Assembly: GCA_035686305.1 (NCBI GenBank)
Contig: DASRZP010000046.1
Location: 1-34,755, forward strand
Direction: 5' to 3'
Length of the DNA: 34,755 nucleotides
DNA from: Thermodesulfovibrionales bacterium
Lineage (GTDB): Bacteria; Nitrospirota; Thermodesulfovibrionia; Thermodesulfovibrionales; UBA9159
How positions within the stretch are numbered: the first letter of the stretch is position 1; every line of letters begins with the position of its first letter. A program made the position numbers and the translations under genes. A model generated the notes under the pieces. That model did no database searches. It saw nothing but the letters and a program-made list of their open reading frames with translations, and was not told the origin of the DNA. Below, piece after piece: positions 31,353 to 34,755 of this stretch.

Positions 31353-31373
31353 AGATCTCCGAAACTCCTGTTG
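31353..31373 (-). repeat. Right terminal inverted repeat of the IS
   Basis: On the minus strand it begins CAACAGGAGTTTCGGA, matching the left end at 19 of 21 positions. Between it and the transposase start, a 10-base direct repeat GGGTCTTACA occurs twice (31210-31219 and 31289-31298). Confidence 0.72.
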
Positions 31374-31376
31374 GTC

Positions 31377-31439
31377 ATGCCCGAGATCCTTAGTCGGGCA
31401 TCCATTCTGTTCAAAGTGGATTCCCGCCTTCGCGGGAAT
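31377..31439. repeat. Composite of two intergenic hairpin repeats
   Basis: ATGCCCGA (31377-31384) pairs with TCGGGCAT (31394-31401). Then ATTCCCGC and GCGGGAAT (31420-31439) form an 8-base stem with a 4-base loop, in the pattern ATTCCC-N8-GGGAAT that matches the Neisseria dRS3 layout and other widespread bacterial repeats. They sit directly between the IS and the first attC. Confidence 0.6.
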
Positions 31440-31474
31440 GACGGCCAAGAATGTGCAGACTATTATGAGACCAT

Positions 31475-31532
31475 TAATAACGACGGAACTGTGCGGTGGC
31501 TATTAGCCATCCGCGTGAGTGATTTGTTAGGC
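31475..31532 (-). other. attC site 1
   Basis: On the minus strand it starts GCCTAAC (R'' box, 31526-31532), continues AACAAATCACTCACGCGGA in close match to the attC consensus, folds through GATGGCTA/TAGCCACC and ends at GTTATTA. Unpaired C and A lie in the first arm. About 58 bases. It is the leftmost site of the array. Confidence 0.7.
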
Positions 31533-31733
31533 GTTTGTTTTTTCCATTTGTAGAAAAGAAACTTCGGAGAGACCCGCCTTCTCTCTCGCATGTTCGATGG
31601 TCATGCTTACAAGATTGCCCTTCTCATCCAAATCGATATAAAGATTCTCGGATATTTCCTTTGTTTCAACAACAGCAACATTTGAAAACTCAATCAAGGC
31701 TGTGTCCGTATCTGTGAAATAACGAATCTTCAT
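31527..31733 (-). CDS. DUF2283 protein, cassette 5
   Basis: A 68-residue DUF2283 protein (MKIRYFTDTDTALIEFSNV, then ENLYIDLDEKGNLVSMTIEHA). It overlaps the end of the upstream gene by 4 bases and its stop codon TAA lies inside the attC R'' box GCCTAAC. AAGGAGG precedes the ATG. DUF2283 genes commonly pair with RelE-like or DUF4258 genes and are suspected antitoxins; function unproven. Confidence 0.85.
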   Translation of the reverse strand: MKIRYFTDTDTALIEFSNVAVVETKEISENLYIDLDEKGNLVSMTIEHAREKAGLSEVSFLQMEKTNA

Positions 31734-31972
31734 TTTTCTTCCTCCTTAAAACTTCTATCAAAGAAAGCATTATGGACGGTTTCGCCGTCCTCCAAAAGGA
31801 TCACTCTTAGATATTTCCCGACTTCATCTATAAATTTACATTTTCTTATCCTTCCATCAGCCTGCACGTCTTGCTGAAGAGGATTTTTCATTGCATCCAA
31901 AATCCATTCTTCCTTAATTGGCGCCCTGTCGGGACGATTCTTCATAAACAAGAAATATTGCGTACATTTCAT
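31730..31972 (-). CDS. Small protein partnered with DUF2283 (DUF4258-like)
   Basis: 80 residues: MKCTQYFLFMKNRPDRAPIKEEWI and KYLRVILLEDGETVHNAFFDRSF. The last part resembles small DUF4258-type proteins that precede DUF2283 genes. I assign the family only tentatively. The 4-base overlap with the DUF2283 gene suggests a TA-like pair carried as one cassette. Confidence 0.7.
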   Translation of the reverse strand: MKCTQYFLFMKNRPDRAPIKEEWILDAMKNPLQQDVQADGRIRKCKFIDEVGKYLRVILLEDGETVHNAFFDRSFKEEEK

Positions 31973-32054
31973 GGCTTATTTTATCATTTTTCTTATCTTA
32001 GTGCCGTGTCGAAGCTACAATCTGACCAGCAGCCAAACGTGCAATGATGCCCGG

Positions 32055-32144
32055 CGGGAACGTTGCCTTAACCAGCGCAGGCAATCCCCTATGCCAAAAC
32101 CAAATCAGCGCTAATCCGCGTCTGGGTTGAAGGCTGTGTTATGC
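32055..32144 (-). other. attC site 2
   Basis: 90 bases. On the minus strand it starts GCATAAC (32138-32144), has the arm GCCTTCAACCCAGACGC and the return arm GCGCTGGTTAAGGC, and ends at GTTCCCG (32055-32061). The first arm carries the extra C of TTCAACC and another extra base, as in true attC sites. Confidence 0.75.
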
Positions 32145-32363
32145 TGTCTTTTGTAATAATTTATTGTCGAGTTCAAGTTCATATGAGAGAATTGTCTTGA
32201 TATTCATTTTCTTGGAAGCATGAAGTATTTCGATGCCGACTATTTTATCTTCAGAAGTTGTATCCAAATTGACACCTTCAGAAATTTCAATTACCCCGTC
32301 TGGCTTTTGAGACCCCAATTTAATATAGATAGCATCAACTTCTTTATCGTAATGCACTTTCAT
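32139..32363 (-). CDS. DUF2283 protein, cassette 4
   Basis: 74 residues: MKVHYDKEVDAIYIKLGSQKP, then EISEGVNLDTTSEDKIVGIEIL, the DUF2283 pattern. Its TAA stop lies in the GCATAAC box of attC 2. It overlaps the DUF4258 gene by 4 bases. It differs strongly from the DUF2283 protein at 31527, so the two cassettes were gathered separately. Confidence 0.87.
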   Translation of the reverse strand: MKVHYDKEVDAIYIKLGSQKPDGVIEISEGVNLDTTSEDKIVGIEILHASKKMNIKTILSYELELDNKLLQKTA

Positions 32364-32584
32364 TTTTTCCTTCCTTTCTTCAAAGGATAATTTGTTATGA
32401 CTGACAAAGTATCCTTTTTGACGGAGACAACAATTTTCAAAGGATACTTTTGCCCTATATCTTTGATAATTTCATGTTCGCCCTGAGACAAGTTCATTTT
32501 TGCCAAAATAGCAGCTACCGTGGATTCAGGAATTCCATAGAGTTTCGCCCGTCGCTTAGCATGTCGTGAAAATTTTATCTCCAT
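32360..32584 (-). CDS. DUF4258 protein, cassette 4
   Basis: 74 residues opening MEIKFSRHAKRRAKLYGI, the DUF4258 signature F-S-x-HA-x-x-R, and ending YPLKIVVSVKKDTLSVITNYPLKKGRKK. The family has a RelE-like fold and is a suspected toxin of DUF2283. The 4-base overlap with its partner supports joint translation. Confidence 0.85.
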   Translation of the reverse strand: MEIKFSRHAKRRAKLYGIPESTVAAILAKMNLSQGEHEIIKDIGQKYPLKIVVSVKKDTLSVITNYPLKKGRKK

Positions 32585-32657
32585 AGTAAGAACCTATCAG
32601 AATTATACCTTATTTGCAGATTGTTGAGGCGATATCCCGGAGTTCTTGATGTTATTT

Positions 32658-32825
32658 TTAATGTGTTGTGAAGAACCGTATACTGCGGTAAGTGATGTAA
32701 ATAAGAATTCCCATCAACATTAAGAAAAATAAGCCAAGCAATACCATTGCTCCTTTTCTATTGCTTTTTTCAAAGTCCTTTACAGCTTGACCAAGTCCGA
32801 ACCAGCCAAAGAGCTCAGCAATCAA
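32658..32825 (-). CDS. Possible small membrane protein, cassette 4
   Basis: A TTG start at 32825 would give 55 residues: MIAELFGWFGLGQAVKDFEK, a basic SNRKG, then a long hydrophobic helix (AMVLLGLFFLMLMGILIYI) and RSIRFFTTH. The start is weak (no Shine-Dalgarno). It lies in the 5' part of a cassette whose other genes are DUF4258 and DUF2283. The clear membrane segment with flanking charges argues for a real gene, possibly one truncated at its 5' end. Confidence 0.4.
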   Translation of the reverse strand: MIAELFGWFGLGQAVKDFEKSNRKGAMVLLGLFFLMLMGILIYITYRSIRFFTTH

Positions 32826-32894
32826 TTCTGCAAGAAAACTCGTCTATCCCTTTCGCCGTATGGAAATTATTACTATTTCCGATTATTTATTGGC

Positions 32895-32984
32895 ACATAA
32901 CGAGATGCCTTAACCAGCGCAGGGAACAGCGCTTACAAAAAAGTGTCGCGTTTATTCAGCGTCTGGTTGAAGGCGTTGTTATGC
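32895..32984 (-). other. attC site 3
   Basis: 90 bases. On the minus strand it starts GCATAAC (32978-32984), then AACGCCTTCAACCAGACGC; the return arm is GCGCTGGTTAAGGC and the end is GTTATGT (32895-32901). The extra C (TTCAACC against TTAACC) and an extra A both lie in the first arm. It shares arms with attC 2 and is the clearest of the five. Confidence 0.82.
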
Positions 32985-33200
32985 CGCCGTAAGTTCCAAT
33001 TTGTCTTTTGTGATGCTCGGCAGGCGTATAGGAGCAAAGTACTTCTCCGGGTACAAGTAATCTTCGCCTGATTCATCAACGACCCTTATCTGATGATGTT
33101 TTTCAGCCGCCCTGTCGGTCAATACTTCGTATAGTTTTCTTTTCTCCAAGGATGCTTCGTAGCCGCGATTGTCAACACATATCATAAAATGTCTTTTCAT
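32979..33200 (-). CDS. Hypothetical protein, cassette 3
   Basis: 73 residues from the ATG at 33200, which has AGGAG 7 bases upstream; an ATG at 33215 overlapping the previous gene is the alternative. KRHFMICVDNRGYEASLEKRKLYEV and ESGEDYLYPEKYFAPI make up a small basic protein with an SH3-like look. I have seen similar uncharacterised proteins but know no function. Its stop codon lies in the R'' box of attC 3. Confidence 0.7.
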   Translation of the reverse strand: MKRHFMICVDNRGYEASLEKRKLYEVLTDRAAEKHHQIRVVDESGEDYLYPEKYFAPIRLPSITKDKLELTAA

Positions 33201-33211
33201 AGCCGTTCTCC

Positions 33212-33448
33212 TCATAAATATTTCTTAATTTTTGTTTCTCTTTTCCCGATGCCGTGCCCCTCGCACCAATGAACTTCTGCTTCAAGTACTGCACCGTCTT
33301 CCAGTTCTATACGGCAAATGCCTTTCATTTTTCTCCAGTTTGACTTTCCGTATATCTTGTTCAATCTGTTTAAATTTTCTATTCCATGTCCCGTAGCAAT
33401 TGTTTCGATTTCCCGTATCTTACCAATTATCTTGAAGTGCATGCTCAA
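33212..33448 (-). CDS. Hypothetical protein, cassette 3
   Basis: 78 residues: KIIGKIREIETIATGHGIENLN, KSNWRKMKGICRIELEDGAV and EVHWCEGHGIGKRETKIKKYL. No family is recognised with confidence; the small beta-rich appearance recalls uncharacterised proteins next to TA genes. The next gene begins at its stop codon, suggesting translational coupling. Confidence 0.65.
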   Translation of the reverse strand: MSMHFKIIGKIREIETIATGHGIENLNRLNKIYGKSNWRKMKGICRIELEDGAVLEAEVHWCEGHGIGKRETKIKKYL

Positions 33449-33495
33449 TTTTAATCATTTTTGAGAAAATTTGCATAGTTGGGCGTGTGCAAGGA

Positions 33496-33804
33496 TCAAT
33501 GGTCTATTAGCCTTAAACACAGTTTCGCAGCCAGATAGCCGCCTGCTATGAGGAAGAAAAGAAAATAAATACCAAACAATAGATAACTGAAAGCAAATAA
33601 AACACCACCCAACAAACCACTGCCGCTTATGAAAGCACCGAACAAATCGTTTACTACAAAATTAAAGGCAGGGGCGATAATGTGTTTCCAAAATGGCATG
33701 CCTACGAATAGTAATGCGGGGTAACCTGCGGCGGCTCCGATAACAAAGGAGAGAGCGACAAGGATGGTTCTTAGTATTCCGTTTCTTAGATTATCTGATG
33801 GCAT
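33496..33804 (-). CDS. Small multi-pass membrane protein, cassette 3
   Basis: 102 residues with three or four hydrophobic segments (LVALSFVIGAAAGYPALLFVG, FVVNDLFGAFISG, LLGGVLFAFSYLLFGIYFLFFLIAGGYLA). The ATG lies inside the R' box of attC 4 (GTTATGCC), so the gene begins at the very 5' end of its cassette and has no ribosome-binding site of its own. No family is recognised. Confidence 0.6.
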   Translation of the reverse strand: MPSDNLRNGILRTILVALSFVIGAAAGYPALLFVGMPFWKHIIAPAFNFVVNDLFGAFISGSGLLGGVLFAFSYLLFGIYFLFFLIAGGYLAAKLCLRLIDH

Positions 33805-33931
33805 AACGCGCCGGATGAGCCGCCGTTTGTTCGGCTGCTCGATCCGGATTGTTCGGCGTCGTCAGCAGCCGAACTCTCCGGGCGATCAGCCTCTTTCACG
33901 GCTCTGTCCTTGTCAATCCGGCGCGTTCGGC
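33801..33931 (-). other. attC site 4
   Basis: 131 bases. On the minus strand it starts GCCGAAC (33925-33931), with the arm GCGCCGGATTGAC and the return arm GGCTCATCCGGCGC, and ends at GTTATGC (33801-33807). Inside, GTTCGGCTGCT and AGCAGCCGAAC form a perfect 11-base stem. Its R'' GCCGAAC exactly complements the GTTCGGC at which the same cassette begins in attC 5, as expected for one excisable cassette. Confidence 0.65.
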
Positions 33932-34012
33932 GTCCCGGCGCTTTATAGTTGTCATATTTGTCGTATACAGTCCCTATTGGGCTGTTTATATTTCTGGTGT
34001 TGGAGGTTTGAT

Positions 34013-34078
34013 ATGATTTATTTCTTAGTAAAGTACCAGATGGCTATATCTTTAATTATATGGATAGTGCAGCTATGA
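34013..34078 (+). CDS. Possible hydrophobic mini-peptide
   Basis: A 21-residue frame, MIYFLVKYQMAISLIIWIVQL without the last residue being polar, preceded by TTGGAGGTTTGAT, an unusually strong Shine-Dalgarno. Its 3' end overlaps the 3' end of the small minus-strand gene. Short hydrophobic peptides with strong translation signals are typical of type I toxins, but no antitoxin RNA can be assigned. Confidence 0.3.
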   Translation: MIYFLVKYQMAISLIIWIVQL

Positions 34079-34202
34079 TTGCTGCGATTATTGCAATTAT
34101 TTCAGCCCGGCGTGCTCGGCGCTCAGTTGCTTTATTATCTTCTCGTATTGTTTTATGTAATTCTTCTACTGCGGCTGATACGAACTGTTCCGGTGGAGGC
34201 AT
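34056..34202 (-). CDS. Small amphipathic/membrane protein, cassette 2
   Basis: 48 residues: MPPPEQFVSAAVEELHKTI, then REDNKATERRARRAE and a hydrophobic tail IIAIIAAIIAALSI. The layout is a charged helix followed by a C-terminal membrane anchor. AAGGAG lies 12 bases before the ATG. It is the only minus-strand gene of this cassette. Confidence 0.5.
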   Translation of the reverse strand: MPPPEQFVSAAVEELHKTIREDNKATERRARRAEIIAIIAAIIAALSI

Positions 34203-34265
34203 GAAGTGATTTTCTCCTTCTTGCGGGCGTCCCTTTTAGACGTAGCCCGCACTGCCGTTATTATC

Positions 34266-34304
34266 TGCGCATCTGCGCACATGCCGACGGCATTGCGCAT
34301 GCGC
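34266..34304. repeat. Three consecutive palindromes
   Basis: TGCGCATCTGCGCA (34266-34279), ATGCCGACGGCAT (34281-34293) and GCGCATGCGC (34295-34304) follow each other almost without gaps, upstream of the 48-residue gene and just inside the cassette boundary. They could form a structured 5' leader or serve as binding sites. Confidence 0.5.
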
Positions 34305-34310
34305 CGGGAC

Positions 34311-34402
34311 GCCGAACGACATGCATCAGCCACGCCGCCCAAGACCAAAAGACGAAAGCAAAACGCACTTATTCGGCGTCGGGCTGGATGCTTTTGTTAT
34401 GT
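34311..34402 (-). other. attC site 5
   Basis: 92 bases. On the minus strand it starts ACATAAC (34396-34402), continues AAAAGCATCCAGCCCGACGCC, returns through GGCGTGGCTGATGC and ends at GTTCGGC (34311-34317). The first arm carries an extra C (GCATCCAGCC against GCATCAGCC), the standard attC polarity. Confidence 0.68.
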
Positions 34403-34416
34403 TTGTCTGCCTGTTT

Positions 34417-34614
34417 CTAATTATCAGTTTCATTGTATTTAGAGCAACCGGTGAATGTCGTCAGATCGGCACTGAGGTACATGCAGAATTTGGTCCAATG
34501 GGATTGATTGAAAATATCATCATAAGTGATAAGACCGAACATATAAAGGACGTTTTTGCCGCTGGCGAGGTCAGCAATGTCAGCTTTAGAAAAAAGTTTC
34601 TCTTTAACGGACAC
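34417..34614 (-). CDS. Hypothetical protein, possibly 5'-truncated, cassette 1
   Basis: 65 residues from a GTG start. ASGKNVLYMFGLITYDDIF and QSHWTKFC with a C-terminal YNETD resemble the C-terminal half of a family of uncharacterised proteins (pattern G-x-I-x-Y-x-D-x-FG...HWT-x-FC...YNE-x-D). The N-terminal half is missing and the frame is closed by a stop about 50 bases upstream, so this may be a decayed gene. Its stop lies 14 bases before the R'' box of attC 5, the usual cassette layout. Confidence 0.5.
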   Translation of the reverse strand: MSVKEKLFSKADIADLASGKNVLYMFGLITYDDIFNQSHWTKFCMYLSADLTTFTGCSKYNETDN

Positions 34615-34755
34615 GAAGTTGTCCCTTTCTCTCGTTGAAGTAGGAAGGACCCTGTTACTCCAAAATCGGCTTCACCAGAAGCCCCATGAGCGATTATTTC
34701 AGGCCGGGCCATATCTGAGTATCCCCCTTTAGGCAGCCTTTTGGGGGGCAAATCC

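Follow-up and report, generated by a model that had tools for sequence, protein, structure and literature searches.

Evidence for an integron cassette array, partly eroded, on a Nitrospirota chromosome

Near the right edge of a contig from a Thermodesulfovibrionales bacterium, small genes are separated by five imperfect palindromes, and the question that this locus raises is whether these palindromes are the attC sites of an integron or inverted repeats that chance to lie between genes. The window, meaning the whole stretch of 34,755 nucleotides that was analysed, is the entire contig C46 of a 3.23-Mb genome in 147 contigs that is 97.7% complete. The region between 31475 and 34402 is best read, with a probability of about 0.95, as an array of integron cassettes that lies in a Nitrospirota chromosome and is partly eroded; an IntI is presumed to act on its sites. 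This agrees with the preliminary description, whose proposals of attC sites, of one orientation throughout the array and of modular cassettes each held up in independent tests. The array is flanked on the left by pentose-phosphate genes and an IS1634-type transposase.

Table 1. Coordinates of the array, its predicted genes and its edges. R1 and R2 give the scores of the two covariance models; fold z is given for two sites.
Feature	Position	Strand	Description
MITE-like repeat, 3' 110 bp	31371-31480		terminal repeat TTATTAAYRGTCTCA; dispersed copies in own genome
attC site 1	31475-31532	-	58 nt; R'' GCCTAAC, R' GTTATTA; distal end of array; R1 24.3, R2 43.0 bits
Cassette A gene 2, DUF2283 protein, 68 aa	31527-31733	-	PF10049, E 5e-16
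Cassette A gene 1, 80 aa	31730-31972	-	4-bp overlap with gene 2
attC site 2	32057-32144	-	88 nt; R'' GCATAAC; R' region damaged, GTTCCCG; R1 14.0, R2 27.5 bits; arms partly common to site 3
Cassette B gene 2, DUF2283 protein, 74 aa	32139-32363	-	PF10049, E 1e-15
Cassette B gene 1, weakly DUF4258-like, 74 aa	32360-32584	-	PF14076, 17.3 bits, under the Pfam cut-off of 25
Possible 55-aa small membrane-protein ORF, TTG start	32658-32825	-	between unit B and site 3
attC site 3	32895-32984	-	90 nt; R'' GCATAAC, R' GTTATGT; best canonical site; R1 33.5, R2 48.0 bits; fold z -3.7
Cassette C gene 2, 78 aa	32979-33215	-	ORF
Cassette C gene 1, 78 aa, TTG start	33212-33448	-	4-bp overlap with gene 2
Putative scar of lost attC	33470-33490	-	relatives CATAG/GCATAAC (R' GTTATGCC of cassette C); window CATAG/TTGGGC
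Cassette D gene, 102 aa, membrane-like by composition	33496-33804	-	start codon within site 4 R' box
attC site 4	33801-33931	-	131 nt; R'' GCCGAAC, R' GTTATGC; weakest; R1 16.4, R2 14.9 bits; fold z -5.8
Cassette E gene, 48-aa small protein	34056-34202	-	AGAAGGAG upstream
attC site 5	34311-34402	-	92 nt; R'' ACATAAC, R' GTTCGGC; R1 22.6, R2 40.0 bits
Contig end	34616-34755		about 140 bp identical to end of contig C82

An attC site usually has the structure R''-L''-L'-R'. A symmetric box finder was too weak to detect it, matching within the array only site 3 along with many chance matches elsewhere, and covariance models were therefore used. The first, R1, was built from 30 aligned attC sites upstream of intI, taken only from genomes outside Nitrospirota to avoid circularity and leaving out class 1 plasmid integrons. 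An unfiltered search with it, covering the entire window on both strands, put the five palindromes at ranks 1-5, all on the minus strand, with rank 6 at 9.0 bits. The second, R2, was trained on 67 matches in loci of relatives with the window excluded; among these 67 a few duplicate another match or lie on the opposite strand, and some are related to site 1. It returned the same five sites at ranks 1-5 (48.0, 43.0, 40.0, 27.5 and 14.9 bits). By both models the five sites span 2.9 kb on the minus strand. An Rfam scan of the window gave no match. Folding of the plus-strand DNA gave z values of about -2.6, -0.7, -3.7, -5.8 and -0.9 for sites 1-5; sites 2 and 5 thus fold no better than shuffled sequences, and their support comes from sequence and architecture and not from energy.

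The palindromes lie where they had been reported, with the sizes given then except for site 2, which measures 88 and not 90 nt. Sites 2 and 3 do have arm sequence in common, 21 nt at 95% and 38 nt at 74% identity. The extra bases that had been noted in one arm of every site agree with the modelled structure in the alignments of sites 1, 2, 3 and 5; site 4 departs from this, its 131-nt form being without the usual unpaired spacer, and the models score a nested 57-nt form of it (33801-33857).

Insertion of cassettes at G^TT predicts that, along an array, each R'' box complements the R' box of the preceding site and not the R' box within its own site. Between consecutive sites of the window the complementarity is 7/7 from site 5 to site 4, where the R'' of site 4 pairs with the R' of site 5, 7/7 from site 4 to site 3 and 6/7 from site 3 to site 2; from site 2 to site 1 there is no match, the damaged R' of site 2 not fitting the R'' of site 1. 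The same footprint is found at 4/4 junctions in the same-family genome G006 and at 3/3 in the locus L088, in each case at 7/7, whereas the two boxes inside one site there mostly match at 3-5 of 7 positions. The complementary end boxes described for the cassette between sites 5 and 4 are part of an 18-nt perfect inverted repeat (33924-33941 and 34301-34318), and the complementarity at the ends of this cassette, cassette E, extends well past the 7-nt boxes.

The cassette ORFs are all on the minus strand, as had been claimed, and the gene pairs of cassettes A, B and C all overlap by 4 bp. No protein family was found in Pfam or NCBIfam for gene 1 of cassette A or for either gene of cassette C, and NCBIfam and PADLOC yielded no useful family for the cassette proteins and no defence family. 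Cassettes A and B each pair a DUF2283 protein with a small partner, an arrangement that may be toxin-antitoxin-like in view of the size of the proteins, their pairing and the known content of cassettes.

The DNA of the array was searched against 176 genomes from the order. Unit A (31478-32012) was matched in 31 other genomes, unit B (32139-32640) in 15 and unit C (32977-33478) in 25, together 57 other genomes, with the longer matches at 72-89% DNA identity. None of about 120 matches in the 176 genomes spans two cassettes and, in the 14 genomes that hold two of the three units, no match joins them, so that A, B and C behave as independent units. Copy edges fall at attC sites in most of the A and C loci examined, and in many genomes cassette C is flanked by GTTATGCC...GGCATAAC, the edges of the unit being the R'' and R' boxes; related genomes break synteny at the predicted points. 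The attC sequences also recur without the cassette gene (site 1 in 25 genomes, site 2 in 9, site 3 in 6 and site 5 in 5). An intact intI is found 3.4 kb from cassette A in G096:C6; in G087:C34 the intI is broken, and the attC array next to it includes cassette C. In the window's own genome contig C118 carries one diverged copy of the DUF2283 gene of cassette A and half an attC; a single gene and half a site led us to reject it as a second array.

Comparison with relatives also points to erosion. Their cassette C often ends in CATAG/GCATAAC, the complement of the start predicted by its own R'' box, and the window reads CATAG/TTGGGC at this position, indicating that the boundary after cassette C is deleted and that cassettes C and D are fused. 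Homology of unit B stops at or before 32640 and is followed, towards site 3, by the 55-aa ORF, which probably represents a further cassette whose attC was lost. Two attC sites thus appear to have been lost with fusion of the neighbouring cassettes; the array would be eroding, and probably once had more sites than at present.

At the distal end the MITE-like repeat abuts site 1 precisely where crossover at G^TT would occur, and the letters TTATTA in the R' box of that site come from the repeat. The repeat is about 150 bp long, the copy by site 1 being truncated on the left, and at least 13 other copies were compared in the same genome, many of them at contig ends. In this comparison the repeat was rejected as the source of the palindromes, save for the R' end of site 1. 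That a genuine multi-copy MITE adjoins site 1 directly, and that intergenic palindromes are common, are nevertheless the points in favour of reading all five as ends of small transposons (MITE- or REP-like) or as terminators that chance to separate small genes. We consider this extremely unlikely, since the attC models recognise the five sites and not the MITE, the sites differ among themselves yet obey the box-swap rule, and the cassettes recur as attC-bounded units. Very unlikely too is that the small-gene units spread by their own means as toxin-antitoxin modules to which the attC sites are incidental. Some copies in relatives do have no detectable attC at their edges (among them L195, L200, L205 and L208), but in many genomes the unit edges coincide with the R''/R' boxes, as in cassette C, and attC sites recur where the cassette gene is absent.

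The cassette-array reading leaves the status of the array to be weighed. By the proposed mechanism attC sites would fold as single-stranded DNA and be cleaved within the R' box, at G^TT, by a tyrosine recombinase of the IntI type; cassettes would enter beside the integrase-proximal site and could leave as circles. As had been stated, no integrase is in view, IntI being found nowhere in the 34.7-kb window; C46 has no attI either. Elsewhere in the genome contig C112 ends in an 88-aa IntI C-terminus followed by tilS (TIGR02249, 115 bits, E 1e-32); the fragment is cut by the contig end short of the IntI-specific region and over its length is 85% identical to the IntI of G006. In G006 five attC sites, an intI of 431 aa with the IntI-specific region, and tilS form a complete integron, and the intI-tilS locus is conserved between C112 and G006, that is, in two genomes. 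Further attC sites are present in contigs C29, C98, C145, C68 and C100. C145 holds one (321-409) near an intI pseudogene with an internal deletion (L014, about 1200-2300), which keeps the N-terminus and the last residues and has lost most of the catalytic domain. Three attC sites in the interior of the 28-kb C29 (L162, 17819-19791) form a second array of the genome, beside which no strong IntI match was found.

The array could be a CALIN, a cluster of attC sites lacking an integron integrase, which would be detached from a local integrase and depend on IntI in trans for any movement, with the same machinery and another status. The absence of intI from the window, the attC sites at 17.8-19.8 kb in the interior of the 28-kb C29, which lack a strong IntI match alongside, the erosion at two junctions and a distal end adjoining the MITE and the IS1634 transposase all favour this, and we put it at a little under an even chance. 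On the other side, the contig stops 350 bp past site 5, which is the side where the integrase is expected, so that its absence cannot be read from C46, and the IntI C-terminus at the end of C112 would fit in orientation. By inference, the array may be part of the tilS-linked integron and not of an integrase-less cluster, and IntI may still act on its sites. It is plausible, as had been suggested, that the array is part of a sedentary chromosomal integron; an integrase-less cluster is equally compatible.

The array resembles the sedentary chromosomal integrons of Vibrio, Xanthomonas and Treponema in having attC-bounded cassettes in one orientation, a box-swap footprint, an intI with the IntI-specific region in relatives, and small, mostly unknown cassette genes. 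It differs in that the arrays here are short and fragmented, intI stands beside tilS, and the IntI of the lineage has an extra N-terminal four-helix region relative to the short IntIs aligned. With CALINs as defined by IntegronFinder (PMC9024848) it has in common at least two attC sites within 4 kb and a contig without intI, although here the contig ends at the array. The 2022 survey with IntegronFinder 2.0 found in this phylum two CALINs, both in Candidatus Nitrospira inopinata (PMC9024848). These are likewise attC clusters, whereas the present array is probably from another order, where relatives have complete integrons and attC sites are widespread. Nitrospirota is missing from the phylum list of a 2021 review (PMC8618304), and a paper on archaeal integrons names it only as one host of similar attC sites (PMC9668308). 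The survey and the review fit the earlier remark that integrons in this lineage are poorly described, and no paper on integrons of this order was found in a literature search that most subscription journals lay outside.

Of 175 genomes in the order, 103 have attC sites by the lineage model (E <= 0.001), as do 60 of 85 genera; the 72 genomes without any speak for the specificity of the model. Strong IntI-like matches occur in 35 of 101 genomes of the order, 27 of them above the curated cut-off, and the nearest named relative of the IntI is from a Nitrospirae MAG. In this order and in several other phyla IntI is about 430 aa long with a conserved N-terminal region of about 100 aa (for example L070:237-1526 and L047:3826-5118). 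In a predicted structure (mean pLDDT 79) the N-terminal helices 8-16, 25-41, 47-59 and 66-84 repeat the pattern of the core-binding domain that follows, and this domain may therefore be duplicated.

A broader proposal, which we hold tentatively and think somewhat more likely to be wrong than right, is that integrons have a so far unreported reservoir throughout this Nitrospirota order. Its integrases would have tandem core-binding domains and be inherited vertically at a site beside tilS; their substrates would be attC families specific to the order, and the genomes would exchange two-gene, toxin-antitoxin-like cassettes from a common pool. The findings extend well-supported integrons to an uncultured Nitrospirota order where they had hardly been reported. 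The shared cassettes form a ready-made set in which to examine the genes that integrons exchange in non-clinical settings, and candidates for toxin-antitoxin function are at hand in the DUF2283 pairs.

Beyond site 5, the last stretch of the window (34616-34755) is an assembly branch or chimera and not part of the array. In C82 the shared sequence of about 140 bp continues a reading frame resembling a DNA methyltransferase.
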